Shown here piece by piece: positions 5,801-23,094 of a stretch of 64,000 nucleotides of DNA. The DNA comes from Aestuariimicrobium kwangyangense DSM 21549 (lineage in GTDB: Bacteria; Actinomycetota; Actinomycetes; Propionibacteriales; Propionibacteriaceae). The notes under the pieces are model-generated. The model made no database searches and was not told the origin of the DNA. It saw only the letters and a program-made list of their open reading frames with translations. The translations under genes were made by a program, and so were the position numbers. Numbering within the stretch: the first letter of the stretch is position 1; each line of letters begins with the position of its first letter. The stretch spans positions 434,001 to 498,000 of the forward strand of contig NZ_ATXE01000002.1 in NCBI RefSeq assembly GCF_000421525.1, given 5' to 3'.

Positions 5801-7423
5801 GCCCTCGGGCCCGATGGTGCTGGCCAGCGACGTGACCAGTTCCTCACGGATGGCGTCGAGCGGCGGGTTCGTCACCTGCGCGAACAGTTGCGCGAAGTAG
5901 TCGAAGATCAGCCGTGGCCGCTCCGACAGCACGGCGATGGGGGTGTCGGTACCCATCGAGCCGATCGCCTCGGCACCGTCGTTGGCCATCGGCGCGATCA
6001 GATGGCGCAGTTCCTCGTGGGTGTAGCCGAACAACTGCTGGCGCCGGGTGACCGACGCGTGGGAGTGCACGATGTGGGTGCGCTCGGGCAGGTCGTCGAA
6101 GCGGAGCTTGTTCTGCAACCACTCCTGGTAGGGGTGTTCGGCGGCCAGCGCCGACTTCACCTCGTCGTCGCCGATGATGCGGTGCTGGTCGAGGTCGACC
6201 AGGAACATGCGGCCCGGCTGCAGGCGTCCCTTCTGCACCACCTGGTCGGGCTCGACGGGCAGCACACCAGCCTCGGATGCGAAGATCACCCGTCCGTCGG
6301 TGGTCACCCAGTAGCGCGCCGGACGAAGCCCGTTGCGGTCGAGCACCCCGCCGATCACGGTGCCGTCGGTGAAGGTGACGCAGGCGGGGCCGTCCCAGGG
6401 CTCCATCATCGAGGAGTGGAACTCGTAGAAGGCGCGACGGGCGGGATCCATCTCGGTGTGGTTCTCCCACGCCTCCGGGATCATCATCAGCACCGCGTGC
6501 GGCAGGCTGCGACCGCCCAGGTGCAGCAGTTCGAGCACCTCGTCGAAGCTGGCCGAGTCGGAGGCCTCGGGGGTGCAGATCGGGAACAGCCGCTCGAGGT
6601 CGCCGGGCAGCAGGTCGCTGGTCAGCAGGGCCTCACGCGCACGCATCCAGTTGCGGTTGCCGCGCACGGTGTTGATCTCGCCGTTGTGGGCCATCAACCG
6701 GTACGGGTGGGCCAGTTCCCAGGCGGGGAAGGTGTTCGTCGAGAAGCGGGAGTGCACCAGCGCGAGCGCCGAGGTGAACGACTCCTCGTGCAGCTCGGGG
6801 TACACCTGCTCCAGCTGGTCGGTGGTGAGCATGCCCTTGTAGACCAGCGTGCGTGACGACAGCGACGAGAAGTAGACGTCGACCTCGTGCTGGGCACGGC
6901 GACGCAGGCCGTAGACGAGCCGGTCGAGGGCGAGTCCGGTCACCGGCTCGCCCGACTTGGGCGGGGGTGCGCTGACGAACAACTGCGCGAAGTGCGGCAT
7001 CACGGCGAGCGACACGGGGCTCAAGGAGTCGGTGACCACCGGCACCTCTCGCCAGCCCAGCACGGTCAGGTTCTCGTCGGCGGCGATCCGCTCGATCGAG
7101 GTGCGGGCGTTCGCGAGTTCGGCCTCGTCCACGGGAAGGTGGGCCATGCCGACGGCGTAGGCGCCGGCGGCCGGCAGGTCGAAGTCGACCGCGGCGCGCA
7201 GGAAGGCATCGGGAACCTGCACCAGGATGCCGGCACCGTCCCCTGCTGCCTCGTCGGCGCCGGTGGCACCACGGTGGTCAAGGTTGCGCAGGGCCTCGAG
7301 TCCCTGCTCGACGATGGCGTGGCTGGGCACACCGTTCAGCTGCGCCACGAAGGCGACACCACAGGCGTCGTGCTCGAAATCCGGACGGTAGAGACCCTGC
7401 TTGGGGTGGTGGCCAAAGACCAT
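2888..7423 (-). CDS. gltB: Glutamate synthase (NADPH), large subunit
   Basis: A 1511-residue alpha subunit with all expected parts in order: a class II glutamine amidotransferase domain, a central domain, the FMN/2-oxoglutarate synthase domain with the 3Fe-4S cluster cysteines ([15 protein letters not shown]), and the C-terminal beta-helix (GXGXG) domain. The catalytic cysteine is Cys21 in EHDACGVAF, implying removal of a 20-residue propeptide, as known for the family. The ATG at 7423 is chosen over an upstream GTG at 7444 because GGAG lies 6 bases before it. The gene starts 50 bases after lgt on the same strand, so it could be read from the trp-lgt transcript, from its own promoter, or both. 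Confidence 0.97.
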
Positions 7424-7472
7424 CGTTGACTCCAATCGGCTCACGCGTGCCCGGGTGGCAAGCGGTTCAATC

Positions 7473-8342
7473 TCACACAGCAGGACTGGCTGCCTCTGCC
7501 TCGTCCGGGATCTGGACGAAGGGCTGCGGGTCGCGTCCGGGGTACCTCACGAACTGGACGACCAGCAGTGCGACCGCCGCCAGGAAGACCACCAGCGAGA
7601 CGTACTCGTTGACGCGCAGTCCCCCGAACTGATTGGCCTTGTCGATCCGCACGCCCTCGATGAAGAAGCGACCCAGGGTGTACCAGATGACGTAGCTGGT
7701 CATCAGTTTGCCTCGACCCAGCCGCAACGGCCGCTCCAGCACCAGCAACAGCGCGGCACCGAGCAGGCACCACACCAGTTCGTAGAGGAAGGTGGGGTGG
7801 AAGGTCGCGAACTGCTCATATCCGACGGGACGGTACTGGGGAGCGATCTCCAACCCCCAGGGCAGGGTGGTCGGCCCTCCGAAGAGTTCCTGGTTGAACC
7901 AGTTCCCCAGTCGTCCGATGGCCTGGGCGATCAGCAGGGCGGGTGCCATCACGTCGGCGACGGCGCCGAAGTTGACCTGCCAGCGGCGGCACAGCCACCA
8001 CACCACCAGGGCACCCGCGGCCACACCACCCCAGATGCCGAGCCCTCCCTCCCAGATGAAGAAGGCCCGGTACCAGTCCCGGCCCGGCCCGAAGTAGAGC
8101 TCCGGGTCGGTGGTGACGTGGTAGATCCGCGCGCCGATGATGCCCGCCAGCACCGCCCACAGGGTGAGCGACTCGACCTGTTCGGGATTTCCTCCCCGGA
8201 CGCGGTAGCGGTGCCTGACCAGCAGCCAGGCGACCATCACCCCCGCCAGGATGCACAGGGCGTAGGCGTGCACCCGCAGCGGCCCCAGGTTGAAGCCGTT
8301 CCAGGAAGGGCTCGGGATCGACAGCCAGACCAGTTCGGGCAT
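7473..8342 (-). CDS. lgt: Prolipoprotein diacylglyceryl transferase
   Basis: A 289-residue inner-membrane enzyme with seven predicted helices. It transfers diacylglycerol from phosphatidylglycerol to the lipobox cysteine of prolipoproteins. The Lgt signature is present ([16 protein letters not shown]), as are the [10 protein letters not shown] helix and the late [12 protein letters not shown] motif. I use the ATG at 8342; a GTG at 8354 overlaps the stop of the upstream SCO1-like gene as GTGA and is an equally possible coupled start. lgt directly behind trpA is a known actinobacterial arrangement. Here a lipoprotein gene intervenes, and that lipoprotein is itself an Lgt substrate. Confidence 0.95.
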
Positions 8343-11075: not shown

Positions 11076-11890
11076 AGGTTTCCTCCCGTGGTGGGGGTTG
11101 ACGTGGCGAGCATCGCCTCGATGGCGTGGGCGGGATCGTGATGGCGCACGAGCGCCTCTCCCACCAGGACGACGTCGGCCCCCTGCTGGGCGACCAGGGC
11201 GACGTCCTGTGGCCCGGTCAGGCCGCTCTCGGCGACCTTGATGGCAGTGGCCGGGAGTTCGGCGACCAAGGAGCCGAACTGGAAGATGTCGACCTCGAGG
11301 GTGACCAGGTTGCGGTTGTTGACGCCGATCACGGCCTCGGCTGGGTCCTCGGACACCAGGTCGGCTGCCCGCTTCGCCTCGTCCGGGGTGTGCACCTCGA
11401 CCAGGGGGGTGAGTCCCAGGTCGAGGGCGAGCCGGTGCAGGCGACGCAGTTCGGCGTCGTCCAGCGAGGCGACGATCAGCAGCGCCAGGTCGGCACCGTG
11501 CACCCGCGCCTCGACCAGTTGGTACTCGGTGACCATGAAGTCCTTGCGCAACACCGGCAGGTCGACCCGGTCACGGACGGCGTCGAGGTCGGCGAGGCTG
11601 CCACCGAAGCGCCGCTTCTCGGTGAGCACGCTGATGGCGGCGGCGCCGCCTGCCTCGTACAGGGCGGCGAGGCTGGCGGGATCGGGGATGTCGGCGAGGG
11701 CGCCCTTCGAGGGGCTCGACCTCTTCACCTCTGCGATCACCTGGACCCCCGCCCGTCGGAACGCGGGTCGTGGGTCCCGGGGGGCGGGCGCCCGGTCGAG
11801 CAGGGCCTCGAGGTCGCGCCGGGGCGTCAGCTGCTCACGAACGGCCAGGTCTTCCCGCACACCGGCGACGATGCTGTCGAGCACACTCAT
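11072..11890 (-). CDS. trpC: Indole-3-glycerol phosphate synthase
   Basis: A 272-residue single-domain TIM barrel converting carboxyphenylaminodeoxyribulose phosphate to indole-3-glycerol phosphate. The catalytic motif [13 protein letters not shown], the second lysine in LRKDFM and the NNRNL motif are present. There is no fused TrpF, which is normal for actinobacteria. The ATG at 11890 shares one base with the upstream stop codon (TGATG). trpD, trpF and trpG are not in this window. Confidence 0.97.
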
Positions 11891-12141
11891 CAGCCGTTGC
11901 CGAAGCCAGCGGCCTTCAGGATGCCGCTGATGACCAGGCTCAGCACGATCAGCACCCCACCGACGATGGCCAGCACCCAGTTGGGTCCGGTGACGGCGGC
12001 GATGGCCGCCAGCAGGAATCCGACGCTGGCCAGCACGACGCCGGTCCAGGCAGCCGGGCTGCGGCCATGGTGGTAGTGACGCACCGGCTTGCTGCGGCGA
12101 CCCGCGGTGGCGGTGGTGATGGCCTCGGTGGTGTCAGCCAT
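11890..12141 (-). CDS. HGxxPAAW-family small membrane protein
   Basis: An 83-residue protein with two hydrophobic helices and the motif HHGRSPAAWTG after a basic N-terminus, matching the small actinobacterial HGxxPAAW family that is typically encoded between trpE and trpC. The biochemical role is unknown. The termination codon overlaps the trpC start by one base, so it is translated with the pathway genes. A link to tryptophan metabolism or transport rests on position only. Confidence 0.85.
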   Translation of the reverse strand: MADTTEAITTATAGRRSKPVRHYHHGRSPAAWTGVVLASVGFLLAAIAAVTGPNWVLAIVGGVLIVLSLVISGILKAAGFGNG

Positions 12142-12189
12142 GGTCGTCCTCTCGTGGTCGTGCCCCTGGGATGTGAGGGTGAGCGCAGC

Positions 12190-12684
12190 CTATCGCGGGT
12201 CCTCGGTGGGGTCGTGTCCCGCGTCCATGGCCTTCCACAGGTCGGCATCGGTGGCCTCGGCGCGTCGGCTGTACCGATCGGGACGACGACCCGCCTGCCC
12301 CGCGGTGACCAGGGCGACCACGCCACCGAGTGCCAACAGCAGCCCGGCCCCCGCGAACGCGAAGCGCCACGGATCCCGGTTGGCCTGGGCGGCGACGGCG
12401 GCGGGCAGGTCCTGGGCGGGGAAGGAGGCGGTCAGTCCCGACAGCAGCGCGCCGATGCCCAGCACCAGGGCGAGCGCGCCCACCACCCTGCTACCCCGTC
12501 GTCGCACCACGAGCAGCAACAGGGCCAGTGCGGCGCTGGCCCAAGCCAGGGTGGTCACCAGGCCCCCGGTGGCGTCGGCACCCGACACCGACAGCACCCC
12601 GTCATGGGCCCAGGTGCGCTGACCCGCGACGGCCGAGAGCCCCGCGGCGACGGCCCACGACACGGCGGCGTACCAGCGCCTCAC
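12190..12684 (-). CDS. Trp biosynthesis-associated membrane protein
   Basis: A 164-residue protein with four predicted membrane helices and a polar C-terminal tail. Sequence character and position just after trpE match the Trp_oprn_chp family of actinobacterial membrane proteins that travel with tryptophan genes. No catalytic motif is seen and the function is unknown. The GTG at 12684 overlaps the trpE stop (GTGA). About 48 bases separate it from the HGxxPAAW gene. Confidence 0.82.
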   Translation of the reverse strand: MRRWYAAVSWAVAAGLSAVAGQRTWAHDGVLSVSGADATGGLVTTLAWASAALALLLLVVRRRGSRVVGALALVLGIGALLSGLTASFPAQDLPAAVAAQANRDPWRFAFAGAGLLLALGGVVALVTAGQAGRRPDRYSRRAEATDADLWKAMDAGHDPTEDPR

Positions 12685-14168
12685 CGGCTCACCCCGGCAG
12701 CGCGGCGCACCGCGTTCACCACCGACCGGGCCTTGTGCTGGGTCTCGTCGTTCTCGGTGTCGGGCACGGAGTCGGCCACGATCCCGGCACCGGCCTGCAC
12801 ATAGGCCCGCCCGTCCTTCAACAGTGCGGTGCGGATGCCGATGGCGGTGTCGGCATTGCCGGCGAAGTCGAAGTAGCCCACCACGCCCCCGTACACGCCG
12901 CGCCTGGTCAGTTCGAGCCGGTCGATGATCTCCATGGCGCGCACCTTGGGTGCACCCGACAGGGTGCCGGCGGGGAAACAGGCCAGGGTGACGTCGAGTG
13001 CGTTGCGCCCCTCGGCCACCTCTCCCTCGACCCGTGCCTCCAGGTGCATGACGTGGGAGTAGCGGGCCACCTTCATGAACTCGGTGACCTCGACGGTGCC
13101 GGGGCTGCAGACCCGGCCCAGGTCATTGCGACCCAGGTCGACCAGCATGATGTGCTCGGCGCGCTCCTTGGGGTCGGCGAGCAACTCCTCCTCGTTGCGC
13201 TGGTCGTCGGCCATGGTCGCGCCACGCGGGCGGGTGCCCGCGATCGGGTTGGTGGCGGCCCGCCCGTCGACCACGGTGACCAGGGCCTCCGGTGAGGCGC
13301 CAACGATCTCGAAACCGGGCAACGTCAGCAGGTACATGTAGGGACTGGGGTTCATCAGCCGCAGCTCGCGGTACACGTCGATGCCGGGAACGTTGGTGGC
13401 CAACTCGAACCTCTGGGAAGGCACGACCTGGAAGGCCTCACCAGCCCGGATCTCCTCGACCGCGTCGCGCACCATCTGCTGGTACTCCCCCGCGCCACGC
13501 TGCCAGTGGATCGGCAGGTCGGGCTGGCTGGAGCGTTCGCGCAGGCGTCGTCCACGGGGACGCGCGAGAACGTCGGCCATGGCGTCGACCCGGCTGACCG
13601 CGTCACGCCAGGCCTCGTCGACGCCGGCATCCGAGTCGTCGAAGTTGATGGCGTTGGCGATCAGCCACAACTCACCGGTGTGGTGGTCATAGGCGGCGAG
13701 GTCGGTGGTCACCAGCATCATCAGCTCGGGGATCCCCAGGTCGTCCACCGTCGTCTCGGGCAGCTTCTCGAGATGGCGCACGCAGTCGTAGCCGAGGTAA
13801 CCCACCAGACCCGAGGTGAACGGGGGCAGGTCGGGAGCAGGTTCGGTGTGCAGCGCGTCGATGGTGGCGCCCAGCACCTCGAGCACGTCACCCTCGGTCG
13901 GCAACCCCGCGATGGGACGACCCAGCCAGACGGCCTGTCCGTCGGTCTCGGTGAGGGTGGTCGAACAGTTCACCCCGATGAACGACCACCGCGACCAGAC
14001 CCCGGCATCGGCTGATTCCAGCAGGAAGGTGTTGACGCGGTCACCGCACAGGGTCTGGTGGATGCCGATGGGCGTCAGGTCGTCGACCAGGACGCGTCGG
14101 TGCACGCTGATCACCCGGCGCTGGCTGGCCAGCCGCCGGAACTCGTGCAGCGAGGGGGTGATGGTCAC
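12681..14168 (-). CDS. trpE: Anthranilate synthase component I
   Basis: A 495-residue chorismate-using enzyme making anthranilate with ammonia or TrpG-derived nitrogen. Its C-terminal half has the chorismate-binding hallmarks [17 protein letters not shown] and [18 protein letters not shown]. The feedback motif LLES (residues 49-52) is intact, so inhibition by tryptophan is expected. The GTG at 14168 is chosen because it overlaps the hisI stop (GTGA) and gives the family N-terminus; the frame stays open further upstream but that stretch is the antisense of hisI and has no family similarity. Confidence 0.96.
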
Positions 14169-14599
14169 GGGCGCTCCATGGCTTGCTGATCGGACAGGTG
14201 GTGCACGTGGGTGGCGGGCGAGGGGTCGGCCAGCAGGGGGTCGGCCAGCAGCAGATCGGAGTCGAAGCAGGTGCGGTCGCCGGTGTGGCAGGCTGCGCCG
14301 GTCTGGTCGACCTTCAGCAGCACCGTGTCGCCGTCGCAGTCGAGTCGCACCTCGCGCACGACTTGGGTGTGACCACTGGTCAGTCCCTTGACCCACAGCT
14401 CGTCGCGCGAGCGCGACCAGTACGTCGCCCGGCGGGTGGCGAGCGTCGCCGCCAGGGCCTCGTCGTTCATCCAGGCCTGCATCAGCACCTCGCCGGAGGT
14501 CGCGTCCTGGGTGACCACGGCCACCAGTCCTGCCTCGTTGCGCTTGAGGCGGCCAGCGAGGGCGGGGTCCAGTCCGGACCGGGGGTCGGCAGAAGGCAT
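14165..14599 (-). CDS. hisI: Phosphoribosyl-AMP cyclohydrolase
   Basis: A 144-residue metal enzyme for the third step of histidine synthesis. Conserved elements are [24 protein letters not shown], the metal-binding [10 protein letters not shown] and the CHTGDRTCF pair of cysteines. It heads the trp run, a common actinobacterial placement. The start at 14599 is preferred over an ATG at 14608 because a CATAAT -10 box overlaps the latter and predicts a leaderless mRNA beginning at 14599-14600. Near the C-terminus LLADP is repeated, encoded by a perfect 15-base tandem duplication. Confidence 0.95.
14222..14251. repeat. Perfect 15-base tandem duplication inside hisI
   Basis: The 15-base unit GGGGTCGGCCAGCAG occurs twice in a row. 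It is in frame and doubles a five-residue LLADP block just after the last catalytic cysteine of HisI, so the reading frame survives. It may be a recent slippage event. Confidence 0.9.
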
Positions 14600-14606
14600 G
14601 GCGCCC

Positions 14607-14612
14607 ATTATG
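14607..14612 (-). promoter_or_regulatory. -10 box CATAAT of the hisI-trp operon (leaderless)
   Basis: CATAAT on the minus strand ends 7 bases before the ATG at 14599, which places the transcription start at or one base before that codon. A poor -35 match (TTAGGC) lies 19 bases upstream. There is no room for a tryptophan leader peptide or attenuator between this promoter and hisI. Confidence 0.5.
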
Positions 14613-14634
14613 GCCCGGCTTGCTCGCCCGGGCC

Positions 14635-14640
14635 TAAGGT
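14635..14640 (+). promoter_or_regulatory. -10 box TAAGGT of the TIGR03085 gene (leaderless)
   Basis: TAAGGT fits the TAnnnT consensus and is followed by 7 bases and the GTG at 14648, so the mRNA would begin at the start codon. It is back to back with the hisI promoter, 22 bases apart. No -35 hexamer is evident. Confidence 0.5.
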
Positions 14641-14647
14641 GGGGCAG

Positions 14648-15298
14648 GTGACCATCGCCTCCGACGAACGTTCCCTGATCTGTGACCTGTTCGACCAGTT
14701 GGGCCCCGACCAGCCGACGCTGTGCGAGGGCTGGACGACCGGCGACCTGGCCGCGCACCTGATCGTCCGCGAGAACGACCCCATCGCAGCGGGCGGGATC
14801 GTGCTCAAACCGCTGGCCGCGCACACCGAACGTCGGATGACCGAGGTGCTGGCGGCCGAACCGTGGACGCAGGTGGTGGAGAGGCTGCGGCGTGGGCCCG
14901 GGCAATGGAGCCCGTTCCGGGTGCCCGGGGTCGATGAGGGCGCCAACGCCATGGAGTTCTTCATCCACTGCGAGGACGTCCGTCGGGCCCAGACACCGCC
15001 ACTGCCGCCGCGTGAACTGCCCGAGGAGGTCGAGGAGTTCTGCTGGAAGCGGCTGAAGTTGCTGGCCCGCGCCATCTTCCGCAAGGTGGACGCCGGGCTG
15101 GTGCTCGAACGGGTCGGCGCCGACGGCACCCCCGGCGAGTCGCTGCGGGTCCGCCCCGGCAGCCACACCGTCACCCTGCAGGGACGCGCCAGCGAACTGC
15201 TGCTGGCCGGCTACGGCCGCGGCGCCCACGCCGACGTCACGGTGATCGCCGACGAGGAGGGCCAGTCAGCCCTCGAGGCCGCCGCCATCAGCCTGTGA
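14648..15298 (+). CDS. TIGR03085-type metal-binding protein (maleylpyruvate isomerase/DinB-like)
   Basis: A 216-residue protein resembling the actinobacterial TIGR03085 family, related to the mycothiol-dependent maleylpyruvate isomerase N-terminal and DinB four-helix folds. The N-terminal helix has the family pattern [14 protein letters not shown], with the usual metal-binding histidine, and a second histidine lies in [12 protein letters not shown] role as a mycothiol- or metal-dependent enzyme is inferred from the family; no substrate is known. It is transcribed divergently from hisI and ends 3 bases from the convergent NERD-helicase gene. Confidence 0.8.
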
Positions 15299-15301
15299 CC
15301 C

Positions 15302-16972
15302 TCACCGGTGGGGGGTGGTGACCCCCAACTTGTGGGCCAGGTCGCGTCCTCCCACGCGGACGATGTGATCGGGATCAGCCACGACGACCAGCAGATCGGT
15401 CGCACGTGACATGCCCACGTAGAGGCGCTCCCGCGCCCGTTCGGGATCCATTCGCCCGTCGTTGACGGCCAGCACCACCACGGTGCGTTCCATGCCCTTG
15501 AACCCCAGGGCGGTTCCGTAGAAGACCTCGTCGCCGGCGAAGAAGCTCGCCCAGTACCCCTGGTTGCCGTACCGGTCGAACAGCTCCCGCTGCACCTCGT
15601 GCCGCTTGCCAGTGGTGATCAGGGCGACATCGCCCGGGGCCCAGCCCTCGCCCAGCAGCTCGTCGACCAGGTCGTCGGCCACACCGACCACCTGGTCAGG
15701 GTCGGCCGCGACGAAGCGGACCGCCGGCCCGTCCAACCCGCGTGGGCGGATGTGGGGGGCGAAGGGGCGCAGCGACTCGGCGATCTGACGACTGTTGCGA
15801 AGGTTGTGGTCGAGCACCAGCGGAACCATGGGCACCCCGGGCGTCCCACGACGCCCGAACACCCCTTGGTCAGGATCGGCGTAGGTGTAGATGCCACCGC
15901 TGTCGGGGTCCCGCAGGCAGCCCAACAGCGGGGTCCACCAGGCATCCGCGAAGTCCTGTGCCTCGTCGACCACGAGGGCGTCGAACTTCTGCACCTCGTC
16001 GAGCTGCTTGGCGGCCTCCGCCATCTGCGCGGGGAGTTCCTGTTCCCACCACTGTGAGTCGTCGCGGTCATGGGGTGGGATGCCCCAGTCCTCGGCGAGT
16101 TCGTCGTAGCGTCCGACGAACGCGGGCCGGGAGCGTCGGGGCCAGCTGGCGACCTCACGCTTGAGGTGTTCGGCCAAGCCGTGGGTGTAGCAGATCACCG
16201 CCACCTTCTGGGCGGGGTGTCCCTGCCGTCCGCCGGCCAGTTGGCGGGCCTGCTCGAGGGCCAACGTGGTCTTGCCGGACCCGGCGCTCCCCCGTACCTC
16301 GACCCGGTTCAGCAGCCGCGTGACGCCCAGCAGGGAGTACTGCTCGGTGGTGAGCCGCGCCACCTGGCCGGCCCGCAGGTCGGCCTCGGGTCGCGGACCG
16401 TCCTGCCAGACCTCGCCGCCCAGGAGGATCTCGACGGCCACCTCGATGTCGTCGTGGTCGGGCACCCGGTCGCCGGGGCGGAGCTCGGCGACCAGGCGCC
16501 GGAGTCGTCCGCCGATCTGGGGCAGGTCGGCCTTGTCGTGCAGCGCTGAGCGGGACAGGTCAGCGGAGTGCCAGGTGTCGGGGAACTCCGAGAAGGGAAC
16601 GGCGACACTGTGCACGAATGCGATCCGTCCCCTGCGCCCCCAGCGGGAGTCTCGCTCCAACCGCTCGATGACGGCGTACTTGCCGCGCCTGGCCTGGTCG
16701 ACGGGGTCCACCCTCGCGAACCTGCTGCCCCTCGACCTGGTCCACCACTGCCCGTCCTTGTCGTGGCTGACCAGCCCTCCCTTGGCCTCGACCACGGCGA
16801 AACCCGTGCCGGGCATCATCACCAGGAAGTCGACCTCACGGTCACGGTCGGCCTCCATCAGGTTGAGGTGGACGAGCACCACGTCCTCGTCGGTCAGGGT
16901 CTGGTGGAGCGCCTTCATGACGGGGTGTTCGGAGTCCGACCATTCCTCGGTCGGGGGCAGGATGCGAGCCAT
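15302..16972 (-). CDS. NERD nuclease domain fused to an SF1 (UvrD-like) helicase
   Basis: A 556-residue protein. Residues 15-130 form a NERD domain with the PD-(D/E)XK-type core VDFLVMMPGTGFAVVEAKGG (Asp48, Glu62, Lys64). Residues 205-550 are a superfamily 1 helicase with Walker A GSAGSGKTT (228-236), Walker B VVDEAQDF (335-341), a DHNLRNS motif and the late motifs GFKGMER and RERLYVGMSRA. Together this predicts an ATP-driven enzyme that unwinds and cuts nucleic acid. Such fusions occur in defence islands and also as scattered repair-type genes, and the neighbours here are housekeeping. The ATG at 16972 precedes the conserved domain directly. It lies 34 bases after the symporter-kinase gene on the same strand. 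Confidence 0.88.
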   Translation of the reverse strand: MARILPPTEEWSDSEHPVMKALHQTLTDEDVVLVHLNLMEADRDREVDFLVMMPGTGFAVVEAKGGLVSHDKDGQWWTRSRGSRFARVDPVDQARRGKYAVIERLERDSRWGRRGRIAFVHSVAVPFSEFPDTWHSADLSRSALHDKADLPQIGGRLRRLVAELRPGDRVPDHDDIEVAVEILLGGEVWQDGPRPEADLRAGQVARLTTEQYSLLGVTRLLNRVEVRGSAGSGKTTLALEQARQLAGGRQGHPAQKVAVICYTHGLAEHLKREVASWPRRSRPAFVGRYDELAEDWGIPPHDRDDSQWWEQELPAQMAEAAKQLDEVQKFDALVVDEAQDFADAWWTPLLGCLRDPDSGGIYTYADPDQGVFGRRGTPGVPMVPLVLDHNLRNSRQIAESLRPFAPHIRPRGLDGPAVRFVAADPDQVVGVADDLVDELLGEGWAPGDVALITTGKRHEVQRELFDRYGNQGYWASFFAGDEVFYGTALGFKGMERTVVVLAVNDGRMDPERARERLYVGMSRATDLLVVVADPDHIVRVGGRDLAHKLGVTTPHR

Positions 16973-17006
16973 GGGCCCATCATGGCAAGCCGCACCGACA
17001 TCTGCC

Positions 17007-19097
17007 TCAGAGCACGGCCGTGGGGTACTTCGTCCGGTAGACGTCGACGATGGCATCGACGGCCTGGTCGAAGGTGAAGGTGGCCGTGTTCAGCACGAGG
17101 TCGTAGAAGGTGTCGTCGTTGGGGTCGACCTGGTGCAGCCTGATCGACATCTCGGCGCGGAGCCTGTCGTCGTTGCGCAGCCTGGCCAGCGCCTGGTCCT
17201 CGGGCAGTCCCGTCAGGTAGGCCACGCGCTGGGTACGCATGCTGACCGGCGAGGTGAGCCGCACGTGCAGCGCCCCCACGGCACGAGCCAGCACGGCCTG
17301 ACCGTTGTGTCCGAGCACCACGGCACCGTTCTGCACCCCGGCGAGCAGTTCGTCGGTGTTGCGCACCACCATGGTGTGGTCGAGGCTCTGGTGCGCGGCC
17401 CGCGAGATCTCCGAGTCGGACGACCCCGCGTCCTGGAAGGTCTGCAGGAACCGGTCCCAGATGCCTGGGTTGTCGCTGCGCCCCGTGGGATCGGCGATCT
17501 GCTCGTGGCTGAAGGCCTGCCCGATGAAGCGCACCCCCAGCCGTTCGGCCACCGCCGGTGCGATCACCGAGGCGCCCGAGCCGTACTGGGCGAAGATCGT
17601 GACGATCGGCGGCACCTGCGCACCAAGCGTCGCGGGGGGAACGGTGACCATGGTGTCGCGACCGTCGCCGACACCGGTGATCGTGACCTCGTCCACGCCC
17701 TGTTCGGCGGCTGCCGCGCGAGTGCGACGGTCACTGAGTTCACGCACCAGGGAGCGGTGCTGGTCGGCGGTGAGCGGGTAGAAGATGATCACCAACGCGG
17801 CCAGCACGGCCAGCCCGGCCGGCACCAGCCCGGCCGACAGCTTGATACCGGTCAACGCGTGGGCGCTCTGTGAAGGCGCCTGGGCCACGTAACCGAACGC
17901 ACCCACCACGGCCCCACCGACCGCCCCACCGACACCCTGGCCGACCTTGCGGACGAACGACAGGATCGAGTACGAGCCTCCCTCGGACCGGATGCCGGTG
18001 CGCCACTCGCCGTAGTCGACGGTGTCGGCCTGCATGGCGAACATCAGCGCGTTGGTGCCGCCCATCCCGATGCCGAGCAGCAGCCAGGCGATCATCGCGA
18101 TGAACAGGCTGCCCTCGCCGCCGGGGACGAGGAAGACCAGCAGGTGGGCGATCACGGCGACGGCCGCGAAACCGATGTAGCCCCGGCGCTTGCCCCACCG
18201 CATCGTCAGGGTGGGCACGAGGGAGGCGGCGGCGATGGTCCCGACGGTCTGCGCCAGCATCAGCCAGGTGAACCACGAGGCGTTGCCGAGCACGTAGCGG
18301 GTGTAGTACATGGCCACGGCATTCATCGTGAAGTTCGCGGCCAGCAGGAACAGGGCCCCCAGGCAGAGCACCAGCAGGGGCCGGTTGCGGCGCACCATCA
18401 CCAGCGTGTTGCGCAGGTTGATCCGTGCCGTGCCGCGTGGCACGACCTCACGGGTGTTGCGGAAGCACACCAGGTGCAGTCCGAGCGCGATGGCGCCCAG
18501 CACGATGGTGGTGAGGGTGAAGGTGAGCCGTACCCCGTCAGCGGCGGTGTCCTTGAACTGTGGGGCGACAACGGCCGCCAATCCCACCCCGGTCAGCGCG
18601 GAGGCGATCGCCCGGGCACCGGAGAGTCGGGAGCGGTCGACCGAGTCCTGGGTCATGGCAGCCGACAGGGAACCGTAGGGAATGTTGACGAAGGAGTAGA
18701 AGAGCTGGAAGAGCGCGTCGAACAGGAAGATCCACGCGACCGAGGCGGCCGGACTGAGTCCCGCCGGCACCGAGAAGAGCAACACGAAGACCACGGCCAG
18801 CGGTGTCGAGCACCACAACAGCCACGGACGAAGCCGTCCCCACCTGGTGCGCGCACGGTCGACGGTGGAACCGGCGATCAGGTCGGCGACGCCGGCCCAG
18901 ATCTTGGTGATCGCGTAGATGGTGCCCGCCACCCCGGCCGAGATGCCCACGATGTCGGTCATGTAGATCATCAGGAACATGGACGTGAGCTGGAAGCTCA
19001 GGTTGTTCGCCACGTCGCCGAGGGCGTAGGAGAAGATCCGCGACCGCGGCAGTTGGGAGGTGGTGGACGGCGTCAGTTCCAGGGTCGGGGCGGACAT
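17007..19097 (-). CDS. GPH-family sugar:cation symporter fused to a cytidylate-kinase-like domain
   Basis: A 696-residue fusion. Residues 15-445 are a 12-helix transporter of the glycoside-pentoside-hexuronide (MelB) group, with FSYALGDVANNLSFQ at the N-terminus, the helix 2-3 loop DRARTRWGRLRPWLLW and the YGEWRTGIRSEG motif. Residues 494-696 resemble Cytidylate_kin2 proteins: IVTIFAQYGSGASVIAPAVA corresponds to the family P-loop, followed by an AERLGVRFIG strand. The P-loop lacks the usual GSGG(R/K) ending, so phosphotransfer is doubtful and nucleotide sensing is more likely. The two parts share one uninterrupted frame. Related LacS transporters carry a regulatory IIA domain in the same place, so a regulatory role is inferred. 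Upstream lies an SMP-30 lactonase gene on the same strand. Confidence 0.85.
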   Translation of the reverse strand: MSAPTLELTPSTTSQLPRSRIFSYALGDVANNLSFQLTSMFLMIYMTDIVGISAGVAGTIYAITKIWAGVADLIAGSTVDRARTRWGRLRPWLLWCSTPLAVVFVLLFSVPAGLSPAASVAWIFLFDALFQLFYSFVNIPYGSLSAAMTQDSVDRSRLSGARAIASALTGVGLAAVVAPQFKDTAADGVRLTFTLTTIVLGAIALGLHLVCFRNTREVVPRGTARINLRNTLVMVRRNRPLLVLCLGALFLLAANFTMNAVAMYYTRYVLGNASWFTWLMLAQTVGTIAAASLVPTLTMRWGKRRGYIGFAAVAVIAHLLVFLVPGGEGSLFIAMIAWLLLGIGMGGTNALMFAMQADTVDYGEWRTGIRSEGGSYSILSFVRKVGQGVGGAVGGAVVGAFGYVAQAPSQSAHALTGIKLSAGLVPAGLAVLAALVIIFYPLTADQHRSLVRELSDRRTRAAAAEQGVDEVTITGVGDGRDTMVTVPPATLGAQVPPIVTIFAQYGSGASVIAPAVAERLGVRFIGQAFSHEQIADPTGRSDNPGIWDRFLQTFQDAGSSDSEISRAAHQSLDHTMVVRNTDELLAGVQNGAVVLGHNGQAVLARAVGALHVRLTSPVSMRTQRVAYLTGLPEDQALARLRNDDRLRAEMSIRLHQVDPNDDTFYDLVLNTATFTFDQAVDAIVDVYRTKYPTAVL

Positions 19098-19206: not shown

Positions 19207-20052
19207 TCAGCCAGGCAGGTCGTGGATCCGGAACCGGTAGAGGCTGGTCGAGGCCGTGACATAGACCCAGTCGTCGTCACCGAAGCAGAGGTTCGAGACC
19301 ACCTCGGGCACCCCCACGAACCCGACGTGGGTGCCGAGGGTGTCGTACACGTGCACCCCATCGGCCGCGGACGACCACACCCGCCCCGAGGCATCCACCC
19401 GGATCCCGTCGGGCACGCCCGCCGGCACGGTGGCGAACCAGCGTCCGTTCTTGGCCCTACAGCCATCGACGACGTCGTAGACCCTGATCTGGGCGGCCAC
19501 GTCGGAATCGGCGACGTAGAGCAGGGTCTCGTCCGGTGAGAACGCCAGCCCGTTGGGAGCGACGATGTCGGTGACGACGGGGCTCAGTCGACCGGTGGGG
19601 TCGAGCCGGAAGACCCAGCGGTCGCCGTACTCGCGCTCACCGGGGTGCCCCTCATCGGGCAGATCGATGCCGTAGCTGGGGTCGCTGAACCAGATCGCTC
19701 CGTCGCGGCTCACCACCAGGTCATTGGGCGAGTTCAACCGGTGGTCGTGCCAACGGTCGACGAGCACCTCGGTGGACGACCCGTTCTCGGTGAACTGTCG
19801 GCGCTGCACCGCGCGGCGGCCGTGGCTGCACTCCAGCAACGAGCCGTCGGCGGCCAACGTGCGTCCGTTGGTGAACTCGCACCGGTCCTCCAACACGGTC
19901 AGCTCACCGGTCTCGGCATGCCATTCGAGCACCCGATTGCCCGGGATGTCGGACATCACGACACTGCGCCGAGCCGGCACCCAGCAGGGTCCCTCGAGCC
20001 AGCGTGCGGCCGTGGCCAGCCGCTCGACCCCGTTCACCAACGCATCCGTCAT
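19207..20052 (-). CDS. SMP-30/gluconolactonase-family protein
   Basis: A 281-residue six-bladed beta-propeller of the SMP-30/LRE family, whose members hydrolyse sugar lactones with a divalent metal. Metal-site landmarks include the early WLEGPCWVP glutamate, [23 protein letters not shown] and [12 protein letters not shown]. It is cytoplasmic, since no signal peptide is seen. Its ATG overlaps the gatB stop by 4 bases, which makes it a passenger of the gatCAB transcript. The symporter-kinase fusion lies 109 bases downstream. A sugar-lactone function is inferred from family and neighbour; the true substrate is unknown. Confidence 0.9.
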
Positions 20053-21557
20053 GACTGTGCGAGCTTGGCCAGCACGAGTTCACGCACCCGGGCCGCATCG
20101 GCCTGGCCACGCATGGCCTTCATCACCGAGCCGATCAGGGCTCCAGCCGCCTGCACCTTGCCCTCACGGATCTTCGCGGCGACGTCGGGGTTGGCCGCGA
20201 TGGCGGCATCGACGGCGGCGGAGAGTTCGCCCTCGTCCGAGACGACGGCCAGGCCCCGTGACTCGACGACCTCGGCCGGTTCGCCCTCACCGGCCAGCAC
20301 GCCTTCGATCACCTGCCGGGCCAGCTTGTCGTTGACGGTTCCCGCCTCGACCAGACCCTGGACGGCCGCCACCTGGGCCGGGCTGATGCCAAGGTCGGCC
20401 AGGTCGACGCCGGCCTCGTTGGCGCGGCGCAGCAGCTCACCGGTCCACCACTTGCGGGCGGCCTGCGGACTGGCGCCGGCGGTGACCGTGGCGTCGATCA
20501 GGTCGAGCGCGCCGGCGCTGATCACCGCCTGCAGTTCGAGCTCACCCAGCTGCCACTGCTCGGCGAGGCGTCGCATGCGCTGGGCGGGGGGTTCGGGCAG
20601 GGTGGCCCGCAGTTCCTCCACCCAGGCGGTCGCGGGGGCCACGGGAACCAGGTCGGGCTCGGGGAAGTAGCGGTAGTCCTCGGCGGTCTCCTTGGAGCGT
20701 CCCGGTGAGGTGTTGCCCTGGGACTCGTTCCAGTGACGGGTCTCCTGCTTCACCCGTCCTCCCCCAGCCAGCACCATGGCCTGACGCCGCATCTCGAAGG
20801 CGAGGGCGTTCTCGACCGAACGCAGGGAGTTCACGTTCTTGGTCTCGGTGCGGGTGCCGAACTCGGTCGCGTCCTTGGCCATCAGCGAGACGTTGGCATC
20901 GCAGCGCAGCGAACCCTGCTCCATGCGGACGTCGGAGACGCCGAGCGCGCGCAGCAGTTCGCGCAGGTGCGCCACGTACGCCCGGGCCACCTGGGGTGCC
21001 TTCGCCCCGGCGCCGACGATCGGCTTGGTGACGATCTCGATCAGCGGCACACCGCACCGGTTGTAGTCCAGCAGCGAGTACTCCGCCCCCTGGATGCGAC
21101 CGGTCGAACCGCCGACGTGCAGCGACTTGCCGGTGTCCTCCTCCATGTGGGCGCGCTCGATGTCGATGCGGAAGGTCTCACCCTCGACGTCGACGTCGAG
21201 GTGGCCGTTGAAGGCGATCGGCTCGTCGTACTGGCTGATCTGGTAGTCCTTGGGCATGTCGGGGTAGAAGTAGTTCTTCCGGGCGAACCGGCACCACTGC
21301 GCGATCTCGCAGTTGAGCGCCAGACCGATCCGGATGGCCGATTCGACGGCCTTGCCGTTGACCACCGGCATTGACCCGGGCAGGCCAAGACAGACGGGGC
21401 AGACCTGGGTGTTGGGCTCGGCGCCGAACGTGGTGGGGCAGCCACAGAACATCTTGGTGGCCGTGTTGAGTTCGACGTGCACCTCGAGCCCCATCACCGG
21501 GTCGAAGCGGTCGAGCACCTCGTCGTAGTCCATCAGCTCGTCGGCGGATGCGCTCAT
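20049..21557 (-). CDS. gatB: Asp-tRNA(Asn)/Glu-tRNA(Gln) amidotransferase subunit B
   Basis: A 502-residue tRNA-binding and kinase subunit of GatCAB, which converts Glu-tRNA(Gln) or Asp-tRNA(Asn) to the amidated forms. The N-terminal [34 protein letters not shown] and [18 protein letters not shown] blocks are intact, as is the C-terminal YqeY-like helical domain. An ideal AGGAGG sits 6 bases before the ATG at 21557, overlapping the end of gatA, and settles the start. Confidence 0.97.
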
Positions 21558-21558
21558 C

Positions 21559-23094
21559 TCAGGCCTCCTGTGAAGGTTCGGCCAGACTGCCGGGCAGCTG
21601 GGGAATGACGGTGGAGGTGCCACGCGTGGCCAGCGCCCGTTCGAGGGCGGCGCCGACGCGGTAGAGGCGGTCGTCGGCCATCGGGGGCGCCATCACCTGG
21701 AAACCGACGGGCAACCCGTCCTCGGGTGCGGTGCCGCAGGGGAACGACGCCGAGGCATTGCCGGCCAGGTTCGAGGGGATGGTGCACAGGTCGGCCTTGT
21801 ACATCGCCAGGGGGTCGTCTATCCGCTCCCCCAGCTTGAACGCGGTGGTGGGCGTCGATGGCGAGACGAGCACGTCGCACTGCGCGAAGGCAGCGTCGAA
21901 GTCACGTGTGATCAGCGTGCGCATCTTCTGGGCGGAGCCGTAGTAGGCGTCGTAGTAACCGGCAGACAAGGCATAGGTGCCAATGATGATCCGTCGCTTG
22001 GCCTCCGACCCGAAACCGGCTCCGCGGCTGAGCCGCATCACCTGCTCGGCCGAGTTCTGGCCGTCGTCGCCGACCCGCAGGCCGTAGCGCATGGCGTCGT
22101 AGCGGGCGAGGTTCGAGCTCATCTCGGCCGGCATGATCAGGTAGTAGGTCGACAGCGACTGGTCGAAGTGGGGGCAGGAGACCTCCACCACCTCGGCCCC
22201 TTGGGCCCTGAGCAGTTCGACGGCCTCGTCGAAGCGCTGCTCGACACCGGGGGCATAGCCCTCGCCGCCGAGTTCGCGGACGACGCCGATCCTCATCCCC
22301 CGCACATCGCCTGCGCGGGAGGCCTCAGCCACGGCGGGTACCGGCTGATCGATGGAGGTGGCATCCATCGGGTCGTGCCCCGCGATCACCTCGTGCAGCA
22401 GCGCAGCGTCCTCGACGGTGCGGGCACAGGGGCCGCACTGGTCGAGCGAGGAGGCCATCGCGATGATGCCGTAGCGACTGACGCCACCATAGGTCGGCTT
22501 CACCCCGACGGTGCCGGTCACCGACGCCGGCTGGCGGATCGATCCACCCGTGTCGGTGCCGATCGCCAGGGGTGCCTCATGGGCCGCCAGGGCCGCGGAC
22601 GATCCGCCGCCGGAACCGCCCGGGATCCGGTCCAGGTCCCACGGGTTGTGGGAGGCGCCGAAGGCTGAGGTCTCCGTGGAGGAGCCCATGGCGAACTCAT
22701 CGAGGTTGGTCTTGCCGAGGATCACCAGCCCGGCGTCGAGCAGGCGCTGCACGACCGTGGAGTTGTAGGGCGGGGTCCAGTTCTCGAGCATCCTCGAGCC
22801 GGCCGTGGTGGGCAGCTCCTGGTAGCAGAGCAGGTCCTTGACCGCGATCGGCACCCCCGCGAGCGGACCCAGTCGTTCCCCGGCGGCGATCCTCTCGTCC
22901 ACCCGGCGGGCGGCTGCGAGCGCACCCTCCCGGTCGACGCTGACGAAGGCGTTCACCCGGTCGTCGACGGCGTCGATCTGGGCCAGGAAGGCGGTGGTCA
23001 CCTGCACCGAGGTCCAGGTGCCGGCGGCGATGGCTCGTCCGAGCTCGGCGGCGGTGGCGGTGATGATCCGCGCGTTCAGGTCGGCTTGGGACAC
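21559..23094 (-). CDS. gatA: Asp-tRNA(Asn)/Glu-tRNA(Gln) amidotransferase subunit A
   Basis: A 511-residue glutaminase subunit of GatCAB, of the amidase signature family. The Ser-cisSer-Lys triad is visible: Lys in PIAVKDLL, the serine-rich loop [13 protein letters not shown] and the second serine in [12 protein letters not shown]. It supplies ammonia to GatB through an internal tunnel. The GTG at 23094 is chosen because GAGGAG lies 5 bases before it; a GTG at 23100 that overlaps the gatC stop is the alternative and adds two residues. Confidence 0.97.

Follow-up and report, generated by a model that had tools for sequence, protein, structure and literature searches.

A UidB-like GPH symporter fused to a predicted kinase-fold domain without the Walker-A lysine in Aestuariimicrobium kwangyangense and other Actinomycetota

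GPH symporters are textbook carriers, and both MFS transporters with C-terminally fused regulatory domains and the protein family PF13189 are already known. In LacS, the C-terminal IIA domain regulates the transporter and is dispensable for transport, according to the portions available of two sources (PMC10703360; PMC10710835). That a IIA domain stands in LacS at the place occupied here by a different domain had been pointed out in an initial annotation of this locus, and the same portions bear it out (PMC10703360; PMC10710835). As far as the available part of the second source goes, KUP K+ transporters carry a PPAT-type domain that binds c-di-AMP, and MFS transporters occur fused to CBS, CNBD, PAS, and UspA domains, the UspA fusions being uncharacterised (PMC10710835).

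The gene described here lies in a 64,000 bp window of the genome of Aestuariimicrobium kwangyangense DSM 21549 (NCBI accession no. NZ_ATXE01000002.1, positions 434,001 to 498,000), where it occupies positions 17007..19097. These coordinates had been given correctly in the initial annotation, to which the strand (minus) can now be added. The complete gene runs from an ATG at 19097 to a stop codon at 17007-17009 and, in the reading of open reading frames, encodes 696 amino acids in one uninterrupted frame with no internal stop. A longer open frame extends upstream to 19466, but full-length relatives align starting at residues 1-21, which makes the ATG at 19097 the fitting start. Residues 1-460 (17718..19097, minus strand) form a GPH symporter of the MelB/UidB type, as had been proposed. 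The MFS_2 family (PF13347) matches residues 23-443 with 292.9 bits against a Pfam cut-off of 27, and the GPH model TIGR00792 matches the whole transporter domain with 382.2 bits against an NCBIfam cut-off of 231.35. The full-length AlphaFold model (pLDDT 80.2, pTM 0.66) contains 12 transmembrane-length helices, the number initially annotated, while a crude hydropathy count on the same protein finds eight segments. They are followed in the model by a low-confidence linker (residues 467-493; 17619..17699, minus strand; pLDDT <50), which from the model is probably flexible and would act as a tether, and then by an alpha/beta domain. Frame, Pfam match, and model agree that this domain is in the same frame and C-terminal to the last transmembrane helix. 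It spans residues 494-696 (17010..17618, minus strand), and the Cytidylate_kin2 assignment made earlier holds, with PF13189 matching residues 498-672 at 90.3 bits against a Pfam cut-off of 28. No PTS IIA (EIIA-Glc) domain was found in the window protein, which matches three Pfam families at E<=1.

Directly upstream, across a gap of 109 bases, lies an SMP-30/gluconolactonase-family gene (19207..20052, minus strand; PF08450, 139.1 bits), possibly an operon partner of the fusion gene. It is overlapped by four bases by gatB (20049-21623), a name assigned from reading the translation. It is possible that this stretch (19207-21623) places a housekeeping amidotransferase, carbohydrate genes, and the symporter in one transcript. 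Downstream of the fusion, a helicase-like protein with a UvrD_C_2 match (15302-17056, minus strand) has a longest open frame that overlaps the 3′-end of the symporter gene, and a later start is likely for it.

The tail was predicted to adopt a kinase-like fold, as the initial annotation had anticipated. Built on a 28-row alignment (pLDDT 84.1), the predicted tail matches two PF13189 proteins of known structure, 3hdt (Z 20.8, rmsd 1.6, 158 aligned) and 3fdi (Z 19.6), and also E. coli CMP kinase (1kdo; Z 16.3). The genome has a true CMP kinase elsewhere (G000:C2:355296-355832) with an intact P-loop, GPSGSGKSS, so the tail is not the cytidylate kinase of the cell. The tail scores 36.3 bits with the (d)CMP kinase model TIGR02173, below the equivalog cut-off of 102.1. 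In an alignment of the tail to this CMP kinase, the column of the Walker-A lysine is taken by Ala509, which lies in a degenerate P-loop with its glycines kept (Q504-Y-G-S-G-A-S-V-I-A513; 17559..17588, minus strand). The GR(D/N) and lid positions also align, the former as G596-H-N598 (17304..17312, minus strand), the counterpart of the CMP kinase “GRD”, and the latter as the segment R639..D644..R647 (17157..17183, minus strand).

The Walker-A lysine is absent from all 27 fused domains compared, where position 509 is Ala in 25 and Gly in two. Gly506 is kept in 27/27 and Gly508 in 26/27, while P-loop positions 507 and 509-510 vary. His611, Arg613, Arg621, Asp644, and Arg647 are found in every one of the 27, and the kept kinase-type arginines presumably correspond to the CMP kinase arginines that bind substrate or phosphate. 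At position 597, 25 of the fused tails have Arg and two have His, the window protein being one of the two; this His597 in place of Arg weighs against reading the tail as a small-molecule sensor. The kept shape of the phosphate loop and the arginines, together with the missing catalytic lysine, would fit binding without turnover. The same conclusion had earlier been drawn from a P-loop ending in GSGAS (G506-S-G-A-S510 in the window protein) instead of GSGG(R/K). The reading of the residues is correct, and the absence of the lysine from all fused tails, with Ala509 opposite that of Cmk, favours the conclusion; the contrast on which it was based does not stand, since GSGG(R/K) has no Walker lysine either. 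The loss is also wider than the window protein, with no lysine at positions 506-510 in any of 27 fused, six adjacent, and 24 stand-alone relatives. Of 32 PF13189 domains more distantly related, 28 carry Gly at position 509, followed by Arg (11), Ser (6), His (4), or other residues.

The fusion architecture is widespread rather than singular. Full-length fusions with 52-62% identity are present in several genera of the same family and order. A scan of named genomes, which used a full-length alignment query with both of its patterns taken from the transporter and therefore reaches near relatives, yielded 28 loci with a fusion-type transporter; many of them are the same contigs as the family and order loci, and the two sets are not additive. 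The same contig collection scanned with the tail alone gave no relative. Transporter and tail share one stop-free frame in 24 of the 28 loci, at full length in 23 (including L117, with 10 undetermined bases); in the 24th, L129, the frame opens within the transporter, at the edge of the contig. Frame changes occur within the fusion gene in L122, L127, and L128, while in L125 the contig ends inside the transporter and no tail is visible. The tail is thus present in all 27 loci whose contig continues past the transporter. Intact copies were found in ten named actinobacterial genera, namely Tessaracoccus, Corynebacterium, Knoellia, Trueperella, Propionimicrobium, Georgenia, Nigerium, Amorphoplanes, Raineyella, and Actinotignum; the only other genome of the genus of the window that was searched (G001) gave no match. 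The tail of L122, a locus titled Acidobacteria, groups among actinobacterial fused tails, and judging by its sequence the contig is probably mis-binned. The loss of a stop codon through sequencing error, which the initial annotation had raised, is rejected by the stop-free frames in many independent genomes. Frame-broken or shortened copies were also observed (L031:6393-7480, L074:7319-8689, L122, L127, and L128), so that either some lineages can do without the fusion or draft assembly has affected it.

In the transporter tree, fused transporters form one clade (SH-aLRT 100; 26 rows, with the contig-end locus L125 counted as fused). In the tail tree, fused tails lie on one side of a branch (support 86.9, unstarred) from 30 stand-alone or adjacent rows, but the fused label needs two changes when outgroup rows are counted. 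A single fusion event, while the simplest history, is therefore not proven. Among relatives lacking the tail, the closest one seen is an unfused paralogue (L161:6157-7506), approximately 45% identical to the symporter. Ratios of pairwise dN and dS were about 0.03-0.30 for the tail (seven pairs), a range similar to that for transporter plus linker (0.05-0.22), with a dS of ~1.6 in the pair L106/L110 that is near saturation. By these values, the tail is maintained by purifying selection.

PF13189 domains also occur as stand-alone genes. Within the family, we surveyed the genomic context of the best matches only, amounting to 47 loci that contain a tail match. A stand-alone tail gene adjoins a GPH gene in six of 32 family loci (L024, L030, L078, L085, L087, and L089), always on the same strand; the transporter is cut by the contig in L085 and L089 and spread over two frames in L087. 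By a rough estimate, with a few GPH genes per ~3000, far fewer than one such neighbour in 32 would be expected by chance. A seventh two-gene locus, L160 (G139), was reached through the transporter search and lies outside the six of 32. Among the seven, the transporter precedes the tail in four and follows it in three. The spacers from transporter stop to tail start are 5, 27, and 36 bases in L024, L030, and L078, respectively, while in L160 a possible transporter start lies 46 bases past the stop of the tail. The transporters next to these tail genes come from more than one branch of the GPH tree, those of L078 and L087 lying near the fused clade and L008 and L010 elsewhere (the last two rows are labelled “none” in the transporter tree, yet are the neighbours in L030 and L024).

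The other 26 of the 32 stand-alone loci have neither an adjoining GPH gene nor a common neighbourhood. Their scanned neighbours include YaaA, a sulfatase, a 5′-nucleotidase, VanY, a methyltransferase, RNase J, GNAT, a GntP permease, an aromatic amino acid lyase, a prolyl oligopeptidase, DmsC, and DnaB, and with stand-alone neighbours so mixed, the neighbourhood was dropped as a pointer to the tail ligand. Among the genes near stand-alone tails, six of 63 encode polytopic proteins, compared with 14 of 319 for all genes (near ones included), counted by hydropathy on crude gene calls, an excess that is only suggestive. In a phylum sample of 396 genomes, the tail profile matched 136 at E<=0.001, many of these being short P-loop matches. 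No GPH frame was found in the 1.5-kb flanks of the 29 best loci, including L131, the closest tail there, so the tail domain has uses outside GPH transport. The link to GPH transporters is a feature of only part of the family.

In the phylum sample, PF13189 ends long frames without any other Pfam family in L132 and L134, though the frames may be over-long. Stand-alone tails lie near a GntP permease in L080:1142-3805 and L081:4539-7205 (assigned by clustering and by search, respectively) and near an MFS_1 protein in L088:7958-9799. On the Raineyella antarctica contig (L071, the same as L123), a stand-alone tail gene and a fused copy lie a few kb apart (7384-8019; 11108-15073), and the fused copy is next to a sulfate permease that itself carries a STAS domain at its C-terminus.

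The substrate of the symporter can be approached through its relatives. MelB structure chains match it by sequence at E 1.5e-42, with Asp72 aligned to an Asp and Ala68 to a neighbouring site position, both of which we take to be positions of the cation site. The glucuronide transporter UidB model (NF007353) is the best-scoring NCBIfam model at 444.6 bits, below its equivalog cut-off of 528, and by this measure the symporter half is UidB-like. The initial annotation had called the protein a sugar symporter; that it is a transporter stands, and the description can be refined to a UidB-like one that has glucuronide genes linked to it in several of the genomes. In four Corynebacterium loci (L104, L107, L108, and L115), the gene immediately upstream of the fusion encodes a GH2 enzyme; the product of L104, the only one of the four scored, is above the beta-glucuronidase equivalog cut-off (825.2 against 544 bits). 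A mannitol-dehydrogenase-family gene precedes the GH2 gene in all four and lies immediately before the fusion in L109 and L127. In L104 and L107 this gene has matches to fructuronate reductase and D-arabinitol dehydrogenase NCBIfam models, all below cut-off, from which we infer that these neighbours may be fructuronate-reductase-like. Glucuronate isomerase (uxaC) is found farther upstream in L108, L109, L115, L116, and L127, and the order in L108 and L115 is uxaC, fructuronate-reductase-like, GH2/uidA-like, fusion. Since the symporter is UidB-like and has glucuronide genes beside it in several Corynebacterium genomes, its substrate is probably a glucuronide or a hexuronate-type or related glycoside; another glycoside is possible. 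No glucuronide-type or GH3 neighbours were detected among the genes scanned at the fused loci L028, L029, L065, L066, L071, L076, L113, and others, and uidA is not among the neighbours of the fusion in the window.

The locus thus encodes, in one protein, a symporter and a predicted kinase fold whose sequence has lost the Walker-A lysine and kept the glycines and lid-type arginines. We somewhat favour the reading that it is a glucuronide or glycoside:cation GPH symporter with a built-in cytoplasmic regulatory domain derived from a nucleoside-monophosphate-kinase fold. MFS carriers have both termini in the cytoplasm, which places the tethered tail inside the cell. There it would no longer phosphorylate, and could instead use the retained pocket to bind a phosphorylated small molecule, with a nucleotide as the most likely ligand. 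The ligand-bound tail would then change symporter activity through the linker, such that uptake could track the cell's energetic or metabolic state, a role analogous to that of the PTS IIA domain in LacS. The probable route of origin would be an operon of a symporter and a stand-alone pseudo-kinase, followed by one gene fusion and its spread through Actinomycetota.

The same tail control could serve a symporter that carries another glycoside in this organism, such as the products of GH3 enzymes, and we regard this as a real possibility, if one short of an even chance. A GH3 glycosidase lies directly downstream of the fusion in L103, L121, L122, and L124 (the organism of L063), the neighbour in the window is an SMP-30-family protein, and the GH2 and GH3 enzymes of the window genome are encoded elsewhere in it, the GH2 matches falling in frames of 1118, 1010, 867, and 607 amino acids, none of which is established as UidA. 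Weighing on the side of glucuronides are the best curated model, which is that of a glucuronide transporter even at a score below its cut-off, and the presence of UxaC in the genome itself.

Other explanations concern the tail. It might still be a phosphotransferase with a substitute for the Walker lysine, phosphorylating an incoming sugar, or a nucleotide, where the symporter opens into the cell and thereby coupling uptake to trapping. The kept fold, GR(N/D)-like motif, Arg621, Asp644, and Arg647 agree with this, physical fusion would favour channelling, and a kinase without a Walker lysine is not impossible, which counts against a non-catalytic tail. The lysine, however, is missing from all 27 fused tails, with position 509 always Ala or Gly, the score with TIGR02173 is below its cut-off, and the linked uidA/uxaC pathway has, to our knowledge, no kinase step at entry and so needs no entry kinase. 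Catalysis is the weaker rival for these reasons, and we judge it quite improbable. An unlikely role, though less so than catalysis, is a structural one, in which the tail binds no small molecule and serves oligomerisation, folding, or the docking of other proteins. This would suit the tolerance of P-loop positions 507 and 509-510 to change and the ability of GPH carriers to be dimers, as stated for LacS in the available part of the source (PMC10703360), but the pocket-type residues Gly506, Arg621, Asp644, and Arg647 are invariant, and such conservation is more in keeping with a ligand site than with a simple surface. Scarcely credible is an accidental fusion or sequencing error with no function: the same-genus genome G001 lacks a match and L074, L031, L122, L127, and L128 are broken or shortened, but the frame is stop-free in ten named genera and purifying selection acts on the tail.

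The preferred reading, that of a ligand-binding regulatory tail, invites a broader one. PF13189 domains without a Walker lysine might be a general plug-in sensor for membrane transport that GPH symporters (through fusions and operon partners) and DUF6198 proteins acquired independently. In Actinomycetota, such sensors would provide inducer exclusion that is gated by nucleotides or energy and independent of the PTS, with glucuronide uptake among the processes controlled. This extension is weakened by the absence of GPH frames from the 29 phylum-sample loci, and we consider it doubtful. LacS shows that GPH symporters can be controlled by a tail, and the protein described here carries a second, unrelated tail that is conserved across actinobacterial genera. 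If the proposed regulation is true, it would show a PTS-free way for bacteria to adjust secondary uptake to their metabolic state and would supply the first testable function for PF13189. No functional study of PF13189 was found in the literature searched, and, in line with the initial annotation, neither was a characterised example of the architecture. No paper on a fusion of a GPH symporter with PF13189 was found in the literature searched, in which the most relevant survey, that of Willson et al. (2019, Microbiology 165:419), and a review accompanying it were covered through what PMC10710835 says of them. Domain databases probably list the MFS_2 plus PF13189 architecture.

Among known systems, UidB/GusB resembles the transporter half, providing the best NCBIfam model over the whole transporter and having a beta-glucuronidase neighbour as the fusion does in Corynebacterium; it differs in that the window protein scores below its cut-off and in that the UidB model has 457 positions and no tail. 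The stand-alone PF13189 proteins 3hdt and 3fdi resemble the tail in fold but have no membrane part; their P-loops read GSGGR and GSGGH, and they were entered as a putative kinase and an uncharacterized protein. Cytidylate kinase, whether that of E. coli or the genome's own, shares the fold and the GR(D/N) and lid positions with the tail but has the Walker-A lysine that the tail is without. A membrane domain followed by a PF13189 tail, as in the window protein, is also found in two cases with a distant PF13189 domain, the single frames L149:610-2133 and L151:748-2106, where the membrane domain is a different one (DUF6198, PF19700, with several hydrophobic segments) and the Cytidylate_kin2 tail keeps YGSGGRE; L181 is a further long frame in the family of these two. 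The KUP-PPAT and MFS-CBS, -CNBD, -PAS, and -UspA proteins, as far as the available part of the source describes them, likewise place nucleotide-binding or enzyme-type domains on transporters, but the domains differ (PMC10710835). LacS, to judge from the available portions of its sources, belongs to the same transporter family and carries an extra cytoplasmic domain at the same end (PMC10703360; PMC10710835). Its tail is a PTS IIA domain and that of the window protein a PF13189 kinase fold, unrelated to it in fold and LacS-IIA-like in proposed role.
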